IMG/VR virus record: IMGVR_UViG_3300036766_002289
Location: 154,056 to 218,055 of that record
Source: a virus
Reading direction: 5' to 3' (one strand)
DNA length: 64,000 nt
How positions within the stretch are numbered: position 1 is the stretch's first letter; every line of letters begins with the position of its first letter. The position numbers and the translations under genes were made by a program. A model generated the notes under the pieces. That model was not told where the DNA came from, made no database searches, and saw only the letters and a program-made list of their open reading frames with translations. Of this stretch, positions 3,799 through 61,027 are shown piece by piece.

Positions 3799-5103
3799 AT
3801 GGGGACGCGAGGAAAAAGGAAAATTAGTCGTTATTGTGATTTTTGTTCAAGGTCAGAAGATGAGGCAGGACGCTTGGTGGAAGGTCCAGGTGGTCCTAAT
3901 CATGGGAAAATGGAAGGTGAATTTACATCCTACATCTGTGGGAAATGTCTGGATGCCTGTACACGGCTTCTACAAACCAAACCTGTTATCCATACCCCTA
4001 CCAAAATCCCTAATCCAAAAGAATTGGTAGCCAAACTCAATCAACATGTCATCGGCCAAGATCGTGCCAAGAAAGTCTTAGCCGTTGCTGTGTCTAACCA
4101 CTATAAGCGACTGATCGACGAAGATTACGTAAGACAAACTAAGAATTCTTTAGACCCCCTTGATTCCGTCGTTATTGATAAGAGCAATATCCTTATGCTC
4201 GGGCCTACAGGTTGTGGTAAAACCTTATTGTGCCAAACCTTAGCAACCTTACTTGACGTTCCTTTTGCCATTGGTGACGCAACTACTTTGACGGAAGCAG
4301 GTTACGTTGGCGAAGACGTTGAAAACCTGTTGCTTCGTTTGATCCATGCTGCCGATTTTGATATTGAGAAGGCTCAAACTGGCATCATTTATATTGATGA
4401 AATTGATAAGATCGGCAAGACTAGCCAGAATGTCTCTATTACGCGAGATGTTTCTGGTGAAGGTGTTCAGCAAGCCTTACTTAAGATGCTTGAAGGAACA
4501 ATTGCCAACGTACCACCAACTGGTGGCCGTAAGCATCCTGAGCAACAGTACTTGCAAATTGACACTACTAATATCTTATTCATCTGTGGTGGTGCGTTCG
4601 TTGGGCTGGAAGATATTGTGGGGCAAAGACTTGGGAAGAAAAGCATTGGATTCGGTGTTACCCTAGAAGATCATGATTACGATGAGAAAAAGAAGCGTGA
4701 TTGGTTACTGGCTCGCACAACTCCAGATGATTTGATTCATTTTGGGTTAATTCCTGAATTGGTAGGACGTATGCCAGTTATTGCCCCATTGAACGAATTG
4801 AATGAAGAGTCTTTGATTAAGGTTCTTACTGAGCCTAAGAGCGCATTGCTCAAGCAATATGCTAAGTTGTTTCGCTATAACAACGCAAAGCTCGAATTCT
4901 CGGAAGGGGCAATTCGAGAAATTGCAAAAAAAGCTATCAAGCTTAATACTGGTGCCAGAGCATTACGTGGGGTCGTTGAAGACTTAATGCTTGAATGGCA
5001 GTATGAATTGGAAGATGGTAAGGGGCAGACTTACATTGTTACTGAGGAAGTAGTCAAGGGCGAAAAACCTTTGGTGGCCGAAGCAACTAAGGAAGCTGCA
5101 TAG
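3799..5103 (+). CDS. clpX: ATP-dependent Clp protease ATP-binding subunit ClpX
   Basis: 434 aa, full length. Zinc-binding domain with CDFC and CGKC (residues 13-50). Walker A GPTGCGKT near residue 135, pore loop GYVG, Walker B IYIDEID, RKH loop in GGRKHPEQ, and sensor 2 GARALRG. The ClpP-docking IGF tripeptide is present at residues 283-285 (SIGFG). All machine parts known in cellular ClpX are intact, so it should unfold proteins and can probably feed host ClpP. No clpP is seen here. AAGGAG precedes the start. The stop codon UAG is the first base triplet of a repeated 17-nt element. Confidence 0.95.
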
Positions 5104-16451: not shown

Positions 16452-16457
16452 TTGTAT

Positions 16458-16530
16458 GCTCTTGTAGCTCAATGGGAGAGCGACGAACTCTAAATTCGAT
16501 TGGTTGAGGGTTCGAATCCCTCCAAGAGCG
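16458..16530 (+). tRNA. suppressor tRNA, anticodon CUA (reads UAG)
   Basis: 73 nt. Acceptor stem GCTCTTG (16458-16464) pairs fully with CAAGAGC (16523-16529); discriminator G. D-arm GCTC-AATGGGA-GAGC, T-arm GAGGG-TTCGAAT-CCCTC. The anticodon stem CGAA/TTCG encloses the loop CTCTAAA, with U33, anticodon CUA (16490-16492) and A37; the outermost pair 27-43 is A-A. CCA is not encoded. The amino acid is unknown; G73 fits several, including Gln. Confidence 0.87.
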
Positions 16531-16532
16531 TT

Positions 16533-42735: not shown

Positions 42736-43119
42736 ATGGGCATTAGTTGTGCGGGTCGTAATTCTGATGCGCGATATGATGAGCAAAAAGGTTTTAAGGG
42801 CGGTTATATACCGCCACCCAGTTCCAACCCAGAAAATTATGAAATTTTGAGAAGTCTACAGATGGGCAAATATCTGATTGTGGAGATTAAGTATCCTGAC
42901 TGCAAGAATTACGAAGGGAAAAAGATAATGGTCTATGAGGGAGATATTAAACAGTTGGTATCGCAAAAGAAAATTGACCCACATTTTTCTGATAATTGTG
43001 CTTTTAAGTCACCAATAGGACGCTTTGAACCGACAAATCGAGGGTGGAATATGGCCAAAACATTTTGTGCTGGGATGGCTGGTCAGACTATCAATTGGAC
43101 TGCGGAAGATTTCAAATGA
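42736..43119 (+). CDS. hypothetical phage protein
   Basis: 127 aa. KKIDPHFSDNCAFKSPIGRF and GWNMAKTF form a motif met in several phage and bacterial small proteins without assigned role. AGGAGG upstream. ATGA overlap with the next gene. Confidence 0.6.
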   Translation: MGISCAGRNSDARYDEQKGFKGGYIPPPSSNPENYEILRSLQMGKYLIVEIKYPDCKNYEGKKIMVYEGDIKQLVSQKKIDPHFSDNCAFKSPIGRFEPTNRGWNMAKTFCAGMAGQTINWTAEDFK

Positions 43120-43958
43120 TTAAACTAAGTAACGGGCATGAATTTAAATATTGTGCAGCATCAGGTGCATTAGGTTACGACGGAAAAGGATATTTTTGGG
43201 AAGCCCCTTTCCGATGGCTTAAAATACTACGCCCTGAAGAATTTACAATAATCACAAAAACCATTACCCTTGAACCACGAAAAGGAGAGTATCGTTGGTG
43301 GAAGCCTTGGAAGACTATTAAGATTAAAAATGATTACGTCATCAATGCAATGGGATTGCCAAATGATGGACTTAAATGGTGGTTGAAAAATGTTTATGGT
43401 AGATTAAACTATGATACAATTGTCTCAGTAGCCGCGTGGACTCCATTTGAAGCCAGAACAATAGCACATGAGCTTAACTATTGTGGTATCCAAGCCATTG
43501 AACTTAATCTTTCTTGCCCAAATGTAGAACATCCAGACAGTTTCCCTATAATCAAGGAGTTTTTGAAATTTACTAGGCATCCTGTGATATTGAAAATCGA
43601 ATATGATGAGGATTATATTGCCCTTTTAAAAGAATTTCATGGTAAGATTGAAGCCGTTGACGCAATTAATACTATCCCTTTTTATGATATGGCAGTAGGA
43701 CAATCTCCACTTCACCCATTAGAAGGTGGAATTAGTGGTCCATTAATTTCATTTAAATCAAAGAAAATTTTGCGTGATATTAAAGCCCATTATCCTGGTG
43801 TTCAGGTGATTAGTGGTGGTGGAATTTACACTCTTGAAGAGGCGAAACGCAGGATTGCTATGAAGGCAGATGCGATATCGTTTGGTACAGTTTTTCTTAA
43901 GAAATGTTGGTTGCCAAATTTAATAATTAAAAAGCTTGCCGAACATGATAGAAAATAA
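43116..43958 (+). CDS. dihydroorotate dehydrogenase-like flavoenzyme
   Basis: 280 aa. CAASGALGYDGKGYFWE, TKTITLEPRKG, NAMGLPNDG, AIELNLSCPNVE, DAINTIPF, GISGPLISFKSKKILRDI and VISGGGIYTLEEA follow class 1 DHODH order, including the FMN phosphate site. The catalytic base region LSCPN is kept. It would convert dihydroorotate to orotate or act on a related substrate. Full pathway not present here. Start by ATGA overlap. Confidence 0.82.
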   Translation: MIKLSNGHEFKYCAASGALGYDGKGYFWEAPFRWLKILRPEEFTIITKTITLEPRKGEYRWWKPWKTIKIKNDYVINAMGLPNDGLKWWLKNVYGRLNYDTIVSVAAWTPFEARTIAHELNYCGIQAIELNLSCPNVEHPDSFPIIKEFLKFTRHPVILKIEYDEDYIALLKEFHGKIEAVDAINTIPFYDMAVGQSPLHPLEGGISGPLISFKSKKILRDIKAHYPGVQVISGGGIYTLEEAKRRIAMKADAISFGTVFLKKCWLPNLIIKKLAEHDRK

Positions 43959-54370: not shown

Positions 54371-54445
54371 ATGCTACATTATAACCTAATGCTATTAGGA
54401 GTGTTTCTACTCTTAATAGCCTATATTTGTTTAAGAAAGAAATGA
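54371..54445 (+). CDS. 24-residue membrane peptide
   Basis: MLHYNLMLLGVFLLLIAYIC then LRKK: one hydrophobic helix with a basic end. Its TGA overlaps the ATG of RNA ligase 2 (ATGA), which supports both start sites. Confidence 0.45.
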   Translation: MLHYNLMLLGVFLLLIAYICLRKK

Positions 54446-55083
54446 AAGACTATCCATCAATTCCGAAAGTTCTAAACGAACATATCAACTCTGATTGCAT
54501 AGCCTTTCGGAAATACGACGGAAGCCAGATTCGTGTTGAATGGACTAAAAAGAAAGGCTGGCATAAATTCGCCACCAGAGGCCAACTATTCGATGCTTCA
54601 GAGAAGACATTCGGCTGTGCTGTAGATATTTTTCGCAATATGTTCGTTGGAAATTTAACCCAAGTCATTGTTGGCGAGTATCCTAAAGCCACAGAAGTCC
54701 TAGCATTTCTAGAATTCTTCGGGCCACGTTCCTTTGCTGGAATGCATGAACCTGATGATCCCAAAGAATTAGTCCTATTCGATATTAACATACATAAAAA
54801 AGGTATTTTAAGTCCAGTTGAGTTTGTCCAGAACTTTTCTCATCTTCGTTCTGCTGAGATTGTATATGAAGGTAAATTAACCGAAGGATTTATCAAAGAC
54901 GTAAGGGATGGTGCCGTACCTAGCGAATCCGCTGACCGTCCACATCCTCACATGCTTGATGAAGGCGTTGTTGTTAAGGGCGGAACTGGACACAAAATTT
55001 GGATGGCGAAAATTAAGACTTGGGAATATCTTAAAAAGATTCAGAAGTTTTTTGGGTCTACGTATGGCAGGTATTGGGAATGA
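54442..55083 (+). CDS. RNA ligase-like nucleotidyltransferase, copy 2
   Basis: 213 aa. Motif I AFRKYDGSQIR (KxDG, about residue 28), a downstream ATRGQLF, EFFGPRSFAG (motif III), LDEGVVVKGG (motif IV) and WMAKIKTWEYL (motif V). Shorter than T4 Rnl2 and lacks a C-terminal domain. Unlike copy 1 it has the standard KxDG lysine motif. Confidence 0.82.
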   Translation: MKDYPSIPKVLNEHINSDCIAFRKYDGSQIRVEWTKKKGWHKFATRGQLFDASEKTFGCAVDIFRNMFVGNLTQVIVGEYPKATEVLAFLEFFGPRSFAGMHEPDDPKELVLFDINIHKKGILSPVEFVQNFSHLRSAEIVYEGKLTEGFIKDVRDGAVPSESADRPHPHMLDEGVVVKGGTGHKIWMAKIKTWEYLKKIQKFFGSTYGRYWE

Positions 55084-57549: not shown

Positions 57550-57704
57550 ATAAAGAAACTTTCCGTTCTTATATTAAGAAGTTCTTAGCAAGGAAGCTAC
57601 CAGATGTAGCCCTTTTTATCCATCACGAAATTGCGGATCATATTGTTGACGAAGTAATTTTCATCAATTATGAGGACATAACCGATGACACCAAAAGAAC
57701 TTAG
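57531..57704 (+). CDS. small hypothetical protein
   Basis: 57 aa with GAGGAG upstream. Helical first half, aromatic/acidic second half (FIHHEIADHIVDEV). Overlaps both neighbours; stop UAG. Confidence 0.5.
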   Translation: MDGRNLDKETFRSYIKKFLARKLPDVALFIHHEIADHIVDEVIFINYEDITDDTKRT

Positions 57705-58029
57705 AGCGTTGGCAGACAAATTGGAACAAGAAGAAAAAATGGTCAAGGTAGGCTATGCAAAAGAAGATTTATATAATTTTGACGGACCTGGACCTGGAAT
57801 TACTTATCATAGGGGATGGGGTGATTTCTGGCTACAGACAGGGAAAAAGAAAAACCTACTTATAGAAGACTTCATTAGTTCCTTTGCCCTTGTTATCCCT
57901 AAAGGCACTAAGTTTGTATGTTATATTAGGAATGGCAAAGAACTGTGGTATGATGATATCAACTACGGGATAGAAAACATGGATTCTAAATGGGCAGAAA
58001 AATACTTGGAGAATATAACTAATGTTTGA
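57685..58029 (+). CDS. hypothetical protein
   Basis: 114 aa. Starts with a short helix (MTPKELRALADKLEQEE) found at the head of many phage proteins; beta-rich afterwards. TAATG overlap with the next gene. Confidence 0.55.
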   Translation: MTPKELRALADKLEQEEKMVKVGYAKEDLYNFDGPGPGITYHRGWGDFWLQTGKKKNLLIEDFISSFALVIPKGTKFVCYIRNGKELWYDDINYGIENMDSKWAEKYLENITNV

Positions 58030-58651
58030 ATTATTTACTGATAGAGCTAGAAAAGTGGTCACGTTAGCCAGAGAAGAAGCTTTCAAATTTAATTTTGAAT
58101 ATGTGGGTACTGAACATATTCTAGCAGGCTTACTCAAAGAGAACACTGGTGTCGCACACCATGTCCTTGAAGCACTTGGAATTAGTATTGGCAAAATTCA
58201 CTTGGAAATAGAAAAAATTGTTCAACCCCCTGGTGATGTTGAAGTTGATAGAGAAAGACTTGCCTTCTCGCCAAGAGCAAGGAACGTTTTCACTTATGCT
58301 GTGGATGAGGCTAAATTATTAGGGCATACATACATTGGCACCGAACATATTCTGCTAGGTTTGTTAAGAGAAGATAGCAGTACTGCTGGACAAATCCTAC
58401 TAAACTTAGGCATTAATCTAAAAGAAACTCGTGCTGCCGTCTTAGAACTACTAGGCTTTACTGACGAACGGTATGAATTTGAACAAGTTTATAGTAATGG
58501 TGGCGACCTTTACAATGTAGTAAAGATTTTGTCCAATGGCGTTAAGGAACATATGGCTTTTTATGACAACAAAAATAAGAAGATAAGTGTTCCAAAAGCT
58601 GTAGACTTGGATGATTTGGGTAAGATTATTAACGCTATAAGGAACCTATGA
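58022..58651 (+). CDS. stand-alone ClpC N-terminal (Clp_N) domain protein
   Basis: 209 aa. Two Clp_N repeats: FTDRARKVVTLAREEAFKF...YVGTEHILAGLLKE (about 5-65) and FSPRARNVFTYAVDEAKLL...YIGTEHILLGLLRE (about 80-145). No AAA+ module follows; instead about 60 unrelated residues. In ClpC this domain binds adaptors and phospho-arginine substrates. A free copy could bind host adaptors as a decoy or bring phage clients to ClpC. Confidence 0.88.
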   Translation: MFELFTDRARKVVTLAREEAFKFNFEYVGTEHILAGLLKENTGVAHHVLEALGISIGKIHLEIEKIVQPPGDVEVDRERLAFSPRARNVFTYAVDEAKLLGHTYIGTEHILLGLLREDSSTAGQILLNLGINLKETRAAVLELLGFTDERYEFEQVYSNGGDLYNVVKILSNGVKEHMAFYDNKNKKISVPKAVDLDDLGKIINAIRNL

Positions 58652-58908
58652 TAACAGTAGATGATTTCAAAAAATTGATGAATTTAGAAACTGGATTATA
58701 CGGCAAGTATAAAATCTTCATCAATGATGAAGAAATAGATGGTCTAAGGTATGATGAAGACCCATACCAAGACGTAATTGGGCAAGATATTAGATGCACT
58801 TTCGTATTCGCAAATGACAAGTATCTAATAACACATTACTTAAATGATTACAAAGATAGCGATTGGACTGTAAGACAAAATATAGATATTGACTGGAGAA
58901 ATTTATGA
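58648..58908 (+). CDS. hypothetical protein
   Basis: 86 aa, very acidic with many Tyr (LRYDEDPYQDVIGQDI). Starts by ATGA overlap with the ClpC N-domain gene, so both are made together. Not recognised. Confidence 0.55.
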   Translation: MITVDDFKKLMNLETGLYGKYKIFINDEEIDGLRYDEDPYQDVIGQDIRCTFVFANDKYLITHYLNDYKDSDWTVRQNIDIDWRNL

Positions 58909-59342
58909 ATTGTAAGCAATTATTGGACCTAATAGCTGGAGAATTAGATTTTCAAATTAAAATTATGTTGCCAGATGGCAAATTTGTCCCAGAACATTTC
59001 CATATTACAGAAATAGGCATTGTAGAAAAAAATTTCATTGACTGTGGCGGAATAAAAAGATCACAAACTTGCGTAGTATTACAAGTTTGGGTTGCGCATG
59101 ATACAGAACACCGTCTTACAAGGTTGAAATTAAATAAAATTTTATCTATGGTAACATCACTAAGTCAACCACATCATAGATTTTACGCTGATGCATATCC
59201 TATTGAAATTGAATACGGCGCAGACCTAGTTTCACAGTATCCAGTAAAAGATGTTGAACTAACAGATGATAATGAATTATTATTCGTTCTTGGTGGCAAG
59301 CGAACAGAATGCCTGGCCCCTGATAAATGTGGATGTGCATGA
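58905..59342 (+). CDS. DUF6428-like protein
   Basis: 145 aa. MLPDGKFVPEHFHITEIG and FIDCGGIKRSQTCVVLQVW, then HRLTRLKLNKIL, match the DUF6428 pattern. Found in bacteria and phages, function unknown. Ends with CLAPDKCGC. Confidence 0.7.
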   Translation: MNCKQLLDLIAGELDFQIKIMLPDGKFVPEHFHITEIGIVEKNFIDCGGIKRSQTCVVLQVWVAHDTEHRLTRLKLNKILSMVTSLSQPHHRFYADAYPIEIEYGADLVSQYPVKDVELTDDNELLFVLGGKRTECLAPDKCGCA

Positions 59343-59551
59343 GGTTTAACATGATAAGAAACCCCGCTATTTGCCTTTTCTGTGATGGCAGAGGTCGCAT
59401 CCTAACGATTTGGAAAAAGATAAAGCCGATGGGATTAATGTCCATTGTTTTGCGAGACAACCCAGAGGTAATTAATTGTCCTTTGGGATGTGCAGTTAAT
59501 GGAGAGCCACTAGACTTAACAAGCCAATCCTGGGAACATAAACCACAATGA
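59339..59551 (+). CDS. small hypothetical protein
   Basis: 70 aa with CLFCDGRGR near the N-terminus and CPLGC later, like a DnaJ-type zinc turn. ATGA overlap on both ends. Confidence 0.5.
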   Translation: MRFNMIRNPAICLFCDGRGRILTIWKKIKPMGLMSIVLRDNPEVINCPLGCAVNGEPLDLTSQSWEHKPQ

Positions 59552-59913
59552 TAGTAGTGCCAGCTAAAGTGATGCCTAGCCAAATACACGAATACGGTGT
59601 ATTTGCCATTTCCCCTATAATTAAAGGGACCGTCATATGGTTTTACTGTTATCCACCTGACTTTCGTATCAAAGTTATTCCACCAGAAATGCAATTCTTT
59701 GCTGATCGTTACGCTTATAAGCCAATAGGTAAAGATTATTATGAATTTGCTGGTGATATAGCAATGTATATTAATCATTCATCAAGTCCTAACATTTCTC
59801 ATCTTGACGACGGCAGAAGTATTGCTAATAAAGACATTGCAATAGGCGAAGAATTAACGTATAATTACTTTGAGTTTGATAGTGACCCAGAAAGTGGTGG
59901 TAAACTAATATGA
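59548..59913 (+). CDS. SET-domain protein methyltransferase
   Basis: 121 aa, a minimal SET domain. IHEYGVFAISPIIKGTVIW opens the fold, DIAMYINHSSSPNI gives the NHS cofactor-binding motif, and GEELTYNYFEF gives the ELxYDY-type catalytic Tyr region. No pre- or post-SET zinc parts. It should transfer methyl from SAM to a lysine. The H1-like protein at 436 is a natural candidate substrate, which is inference. Confidence 0.85.
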   Translation: MIVVPAKVMPSQIHEYGVFAISPIIKGTVIWFYCYPPDFRIKVIPPEMQFFADRYAYKPIGKDYYEFAGDIAMYINHSSSPNISHLDDGRSIANKDIAIGEELTYNYFEFDSDPESGGKLI

Positions 59914-60535: not shown

Positions 60536-61027
60536 ATGATTTATTCAGAATATAAAGCATTGCAGAAACTTATACCAACAGGGGCAGATATCGAAGGTCC
60601 ATTCTTCAAGCCCAATTCTCCACTATTGTCCACGTTAACCGTTGAATACACTTTAACATTATCTGGAACGGTTAAAGATACTGATGGTAATTTATTAACA
60701 GGTATTAAACTAGATTTTTGGCAAGCTGACGCTGCTGGTATCTATGACAATGATGGTTTTTATCTGCGTGGCCATCAATTGTCGGATCAAGATGGTAAGT
60801 ATAGCCTAAATACAATTAGACCAGGACATTATCCCATTGGACCAAATGAATATCGTTGCTCACATATCCATGTTAAATTGTCAGCGAATGGTTATAAATC
60901 ATTAACAACACAACTCTACTTTACTGATGATAGTTTTGACGCTCAAGACCATTGGTTTGATGCAAAACGTTGTTTTAAACCTGATAATATATTTGATTTT
61001 GTGCTAGAAAAACTACCTACTGCATGA
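60536..61027 (+). CDS. intradiol ring-cleavage dioxygenase-like protein
   Basis: 163 aa. LDFWQADAAGIYDNDG holds the first Tyr ligand, PGHYPIGPNEYRCSHIHVKL holds the second Tyr and the His-x-His pair, so the non-haem Fe(III) site of protocatechuate/catechol dioxygenases is complete. Shorter than catabolic subunits (about 200-240 aa). AGGAGG upstream. Could act on phenolics or lignin-like compounds; target unknown. Confidence 0.85.
   Translation: MIYSEYKALQKLIPTGADIEGPFFKPNSPLLSTLTVEYTLTLSGTVKDTDGNLLTGIKLDFWQADAAGIYDNDGFYLRGHQLSDQDGKYSLNTIRPGHYPIGPNEYRCSHIHVKLSANGYKSLTTQLYFTDDSFDAQDHWFDAKRCFKPDNIFDFVLEKLPTA

Follow-up and report, generated by a model that had tools for sequence, protein, structure and literature searches.

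A free ClpC-type N-terminal domain in a jumbo phage

Judging from its sequence and a structural model, a 209-amino-acid (aa) protein encoded in a virus record of 390,039 bp is a complete N-terminal domain (NTD) of the ClpC type, with two Clp_N repeats and without a motor. The gene is located on the plus strand at positions 58022 to 58651 of the window, i.e., the whole stretch of 64,000 nucleotides that was analyzed (G000:C1:154056-218055), and it is an intact open reading frame (ORF) with an ATG start. Phylogenetic analysis of related proteins indicates that phages gained motor-less ClpC NTDs several times (see below).

The Pfam family Clp_N (PF02861) has two matches in the protein (E=2.7e-28; score 98.3 bits, cut-off 20.7). 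After conversion of genome coordinates to window numbering, the first repeat spans positions 58067 to 58222 and includes E31, the counterpart of ClpC E32 in the first phosphoarginine pocket (pArg1), while the second repeat spans positions 58298 to 58456 and includes E108, the counterpart of ClpC E106 in the second pocket (pArg2); both are on the plus strand. The NTDs of ClpC and ClpC1 were the best matches in a phmmer search of the PDB (residues 1 to 148, E~1e-36), and the profile of PHROG 35667 matches the same residues (E=2.2e-33). Identity to bacterial ClpC is at most 53%. These searches bear out a sequence-only reading, which had proposed a free ClpC N-domain composed of two Clp_N repeats without an AAA+ module.

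An AlphaFold (AF2) model was built from 43 aligned sequences, from which L002, L006, and L008 were left out, so that the tail had no counterpart from the huge phage LR756511. The mean pLDDT is 87, with values mostly above 95 in the NTD and lower values in the tail. In Foldseek, the model matched ClpC and ClpC1 NTDs at TMt values of 0.90 to 0.96, including the pArg-bound structure 5hbn and the MecA-bound structure 2y1r, and the TM score of the model to the ClpC1 NTD was 0.95. The protein resembles the ClpC/ClpC1 NTD in fold, in length, in its two PF02861 repeats, in its pArg pocket residues, and in the character of its hydrophobic groove. Unlike ClpC and ClpC1, it has no AAA1, M-domain, AAA2, or ClpP-docking loop, the features that define a ClpC unfoldase; no AAA+ module was found in the 209-aa ORF, which stops after the NTD and an added tail of 61 aa (positions 58466 to 58648, plus strand). 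The tail is mostly helical in the model, at lower confidence, and has a counterpart in LR756511. The motif LGF at residues 144 to 146 was considered as a ClpP-docking motif and dropped, since LR756511 has LIGE and ClpC has its usual LLG at this place. No second Clp_N gene was found across the 390-kb record.

Gene context

A likely ribosome-binding site, GGAG, can be read off the sequence at positions 58008 to 58011 (plus strand), 10 nt ahead of the ATG. The upstream ORF (114 aa; positions 57685 to 58029) and the downstream ORF (86 aa; positions 58648 to 58908), both on the plus strand and without an assigned function, overlap the Clp_N ORF by 8 nt and 4 nt, respectively, and the upstream overlap suggests translational coupling. 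Because the Clp_N ORF overlaps both neighbors by a few bases, it is probably an internal member of a tightly packed operon. Promoter-like sites around the gene were found in no excess over shuffled sequence, and PADLOC returned zero matches for the Clp_N protein or its neighbors. The second gene after Clp_N encodes a DUF6428 protein (positions 58905 to 59342; Pfam E=4.9e-34). An ORF at positions 59548 to 59913 looks SET-domain-like by eye and had no NCBIfam match. The 163-aa product of positions 60536 to 61027 shows similarity to dioxygenases of the intradiol (catechol/protocatechuate) kind, with an NCBIfam E of 9e-19 that is under the family cut-offs, and is an unusual phage cargo.

Ligand-binding surfaces

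The NTD of ClpC carries two pArg pockets, both of which are also bound by MecA, as well as a hydrophobic groove, and its residues K85 and R9 anchor it to the motor (PMC12583610). ClpC residues T7, R9, E32, and E106 are unchanged in the window protein (T6, R8, E31, and E108), whereas T81 is conservatively replaced with Ser, K85 with Arg, and E89 with Thr. The pArg-pocket residues T7, E32, T81, and E106 therefore read T, E, S, and E. Hydrophobic-groove character is present as well. Among 50 non-redundant stand-alone proteins, E32 is retained in 90%, E106 in 90%, and K85 in 86%. Because ligand-binding and anchoring residues are both mostly retained, conservation alone cannot separate a molecular sponge from other roles, and conservation of the pockets may partly reflect inheritance and folding.

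Stand-alone Clp_N proteins occur in many phages and arose several times

A profile scan of IMG/VR yielded 79 loci, of which 53 encode Clp_N proteins of 199 to 501 aa without AAA+ and 22 encode full-length or end-truncated ClpC/ClpB-type proteins. The stand-alone proteins lack the AAA1 Walker A motif, and because only two patterns were used in the scan, all counts are lower bounds (at least 53 stand-alone proteins). Free Clp_N is also encoded by the cultured mycobacteriophages Myrna (gp251) and Phabba (gp260), and the membership of these isolates shows that the family did not arise through faulty assembly. The host of Phabba, M. smegmatis, possesses ClpC1. Phabba gp260 (L003:4001-4666) is labeled “Clp family protein, ATPase domain” in its database record, yet it has no ATPase motif, and PHROG 35667 is listed as being of unknown function. 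The members of PHROG 35667, Myrna gp251, and Phabba gp260 are, like the window protein, phage stand-alone Clp_N proteins of similar size, whereas the two mycobacteriophage proteins have an actinobacterial, ClpC1-type NTD and a different tail. The “phages” Efs 1-1-1 and SA 1306 Kay and a fecal clone matched through full-length ClpC/ClpB proteins; these probably stem from bacterial contamination and were excluded from the free Clp_N set.

In a tree of 105 sequences that included bacterial ClpC NTDs, the stand-alone viral proteins were scattered over several positions, with 9 changes, at least 4 of which are forced by supported branches. A cleaner 48-sequence tree gave 6 changes, of which supported branches again force at least 4; on this set, the hypothesis that the stand-alone proteins form one clade was rejected (p-AU 4e-63). 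On these sequence comparisons, motor-less ClpC NTDs were gained several times by phages, and a single origin is rejected. The supported group of the window protein contains 14 free viral sequences and 2 full-length sequences. Free Clp_N was found in some actinomycetes too (L151 and L169), and it is possible that some phages captured a bacterial Clp_N gene that was already free. A full-length ClpC-like unfoldase of 744 aa is encoded by the 735-kb huge phage LR756501 (L005:2995-5229).

A search of open-access papers turned up no account of a family of stand-alone ClpC NTDs in phages; a jumbo-phage survey (PMC7824862) names ClpP, ClpS, ClpA, and ClpX, with no free Clp_N in the passages found. Stand-alone Clp_N as such is already known from ClpC2 and ClpT.

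The C-terminal tails of the stand-alone proteins are mostly unrelated and fall into 43 groups among 55 (BLASTP). A MazG tail (PF03819, E=2.4e-10) lies in one frame with Clp_N at L020:6001-6858 and L026:6001-6849, and an HD phosphohydrolase tail (PF13328, E=3.1e-9) does so at L031:1235-2212 and L034:6001-6978. A Cys-rich tail recurs in two jumbo phages (L021 and L039), and a short TLTIRW-like tail recurs in four contigs (L022, L027, L040, and L084). No Pfam family was matched by the 61-aa window tail. It resembles the LR756511 tail beyond chance (the global score was reached by 0 of 2,000 shuffles and the local score by 17 of 2,000), and is barely alignable with the tail of the related virus G039. 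Neither scanning IMG/VR with an alignment of the tails nor tblastn against phage records gave further clear relatives.

ClpX and a ClpP-like protein in the same lineage

The phage encodes a 434-aa ClpX at window positions 3799 to 5103 (plus strand), with a Zn finger, Walker A and B motifs, and the ClpP-docking IGF loop; it scores above the cut-off of the NCBIfam clpX equivalogs, so the ClpX proposed at this place by the sequence-only reading is real. About 100 kb past the window, the same genome encodes a 203-aa ClpP-like protein with plausible Ser, His, and Asp residues. Its NCBIfam scores for ClpP are slightly above those for the ClpP-related head-maturation protease, with both under the cut-off, and a role in head maturation is possible. 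The 390-kb genome has no gene for ClpS.

The ClpX gene is not adjacent to the Clp_N gene; both are co-conserved in three related jumbo phages. LR756511, a 595-kb huge phage, shares with the window genome ClpX (72% identity), the ClpP-like protein (61%), and the free Clp_N (34%, including the tail), in which the pocket residues are retained. In a 527-kb IMG/VR virus (G039/L066), ClpX is 59% identical and the free Clp_N is 29% identical over nearly its whole length, and a gene of the ClpP family is present as well. The trio of ClpX, ClpP-like protein, and Clp_N is thus conserved in one jumbo-phage lineage represented by three genomes, and Clp_N is its fastest-evolving member. Of the 46 IMG/VR records with Clp_N that were searched, many of which are fragments, G039 was the sole one with ClpX, and ClpP turned up in just two, G002 and G039. 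This scarcity argues against a general tie between free Clp_N and a phage ClpXP. The earlier suggestion of phage control over both Clp pathways of the host draws its support from the co-occurrence in three genomes and is confined to that single lineage.

Several other features of the genome were noted. The product of positions 54427 to 55083 is 57% identical to an LR756511 protein encoded 3 kb upstream of Clp_N and, by its look, resembles an RNA ligase. ARAGORN reported a tRNA with a CTA anticodon (“tRNA-Pyl”) at positions 16457 to 16531, a possible amber suppressor, and a dihydroorotate-dehydrogenase-like protein is encoded at positions 43044 to 43958 (NCBIfam E=8e-25, under the cut-off). Two terminase-like matches lie far apart (G000:C1:6627-7271 and 368494-369867), the first with one internal TAA, and the terminase gene is possibly split or interrupted. 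Terminase_6N is present in 13 of 45 records, this genome included. The use of phrog_2 as a phage hallmark was abandoned as unspecific, as it was positive in 11 of 14 control genomes.

Possible functions

The best explanation, to which we assign somewhat less than an even chance, is that the protein acts as a soluble competitor and titrates away ligands of the host ClpC, either its substrates or its adaptors. A ClpC head without a motor would bind clients and adaptors and be incapable of degrading them. It would present two pArg/MecA pockets and a hydrophobic groove in the infected cell, where it could bind MecA- or McsB-like adaptors or substrates that are exposed or marked by phosphoarginine. 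Ligands captured in this way would be withheld from the host ClpC-ClpP, so that phage proteins might be protected or host stress proteolysis blunted, while the phage ClpX, with the ClpP-like protease, would remain active. In this model we infer the binding partners, the competition, the timing, and the presence of ClpC in the host.

There are two precedents. When in excess, ClpC2 of Mycobacterium tuberculosis (Mtb), a homologue of part of ClpC, slows casein degradation by ClpC1P and sequesters cyclomarin in vitro (PMC10030653). The phage SPO1 protein Gp53 binds ClpC as an adaptor mimic and competes with MecA (PMC6873191); by description, it acts like the window protein on the ClpC NTD-adaptor axis, and it mimics the adaptor, which is the opposite route to mimicry of the NTD. 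The competitor is favored because of these precedents, the ClpC-type fold, the retained pockets, and the recurrence of motor-less forms in phages. The decoy or adaptor role proposed by the sequence-only reading accordingly survives, as a putative role, in the form of the best-supported class of mechanism. Four points weigh against a competitor: (i) a sponge has to be present in large amounts, and casein was protected with ClpC2 at 100 µM; (ii) an adaptor or structural role would retain the pockets equally; (iii) the same NTD surfaces serve for anchoring inside ClpC; and (iv) a plain sponge needs no appended tails, some of which are enzymatic.

The main rival, which we hold to be possible and clearly less probable, is a tether or adaptor, in which Clp_N would capture ClpC-type ligands (adaptors and pArg-marked or unfolded proteins) and the tail would deliver them elsewhere or localize a phage enzyme. 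In the jumbo lineage, the receiver could be the phage ClpXP, in keeping with the joint presence of the three genes in the three related phages. The great diversity of C termini, with its MazG and HD domains and its recurrent Cys-rich and TLTIRW-like tails, and the similarity of the window and LR756511 tails are in line with a tether. However, tail diversity may equally be the debris of independent truncations, no known domain is recognized in the window tail, which is modeled at lower confidence and hardly aligns with that of G039, and ClpX and ClpP are both missing from most phages that carry a free Clp_N. A broader reading, which we consider unlikely, is that repeatedly trimmed ClpC heads with interchangeable tails form a class of counter-proteolysis or redirecting proteins; here, together with the phage ClpXP, such a protein would starve the host ClpCP and re-route its clients.

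Somewhat less likely still is an accessory role like that proposed for chloroplast ClpT1 and ClpT2, in which Clp_N would bind the ClpP ring of the phage or host and regulate its assembly or block chaperone docking. ClpT binds to the protease and seems to obstruct the chaperone sites (PMC4243950). ClpT1 and ClpT2 (PDB 4y0b and 4y0c) are likewise free proteins with a double Clp_N, the TMt of the model to ClpT1 (4y0b) is 0.89, and the ClpP-like protein of the phage has a plausible Ser-His-Asp set. ClpT, however, binds the plastid ClpPR core, and the sequence of the window protein is of the ClpC type (E~1e-36, against E=2e-7 for ClpT1), which places it outside the ClpT type. Moreover, nearly all other carriers have no ClpP, and the phage ClpP-like protein may serve in head maturation. 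Given the co-occurrence of the trio in the jumbo lineage, a ClpT-like role or a re-routing of clients still deserves consideration.

We regard as improbable a ClpC2-like protein that would be an autoregulated sink for toxic ClpC ligands and a repressor on its own DNA. Mycobacterial ClpC2 (PDB 8ad9 and 9p2p) is motor-less, ClpC-NTD-like, and a ligand sink in vitro, and the Mtb protein binds both cyclomarin and its own operator (PMC10030653). In contrast to the phage protein, it is bacterial and has its own N-terminal dimerization domain and a DNA-binding role (PMC10030653), while the ClpC-type NTD of the window protein begins at residue 1, outside the ClpC2 type. The latter is also far closer in sequence to the ClpC1 NTD (E~1e-36) than to ClpC2 (E~1e-11 to 1e-14), its gene overlaps both neighbors, and promoter-like sites do not exceed those in shuffled sequence. 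Finally, although several independent motor-less forms exist, often with unrelated tails, a non-functional remnant of a captured clpC is the least credible explanation, given the intact frame and ribosome-binding site, the counterparts over the whole length in LR756511 (with its pocket residues) and nearly the whole length in G039, and the free Clp_N of the isolated phages Myrna and Phabba.

If the competitor or the tether proves true, phages would have converged many times on the recognition head of ClpC alone, and ClpC-dependent proteolysis would be a recurrent battleground between phage and host. Natural NTD-based modulators of ClpC would then be at hand, and a PHROG that is listed without function and partly misannotated as an ATPase would be explained.
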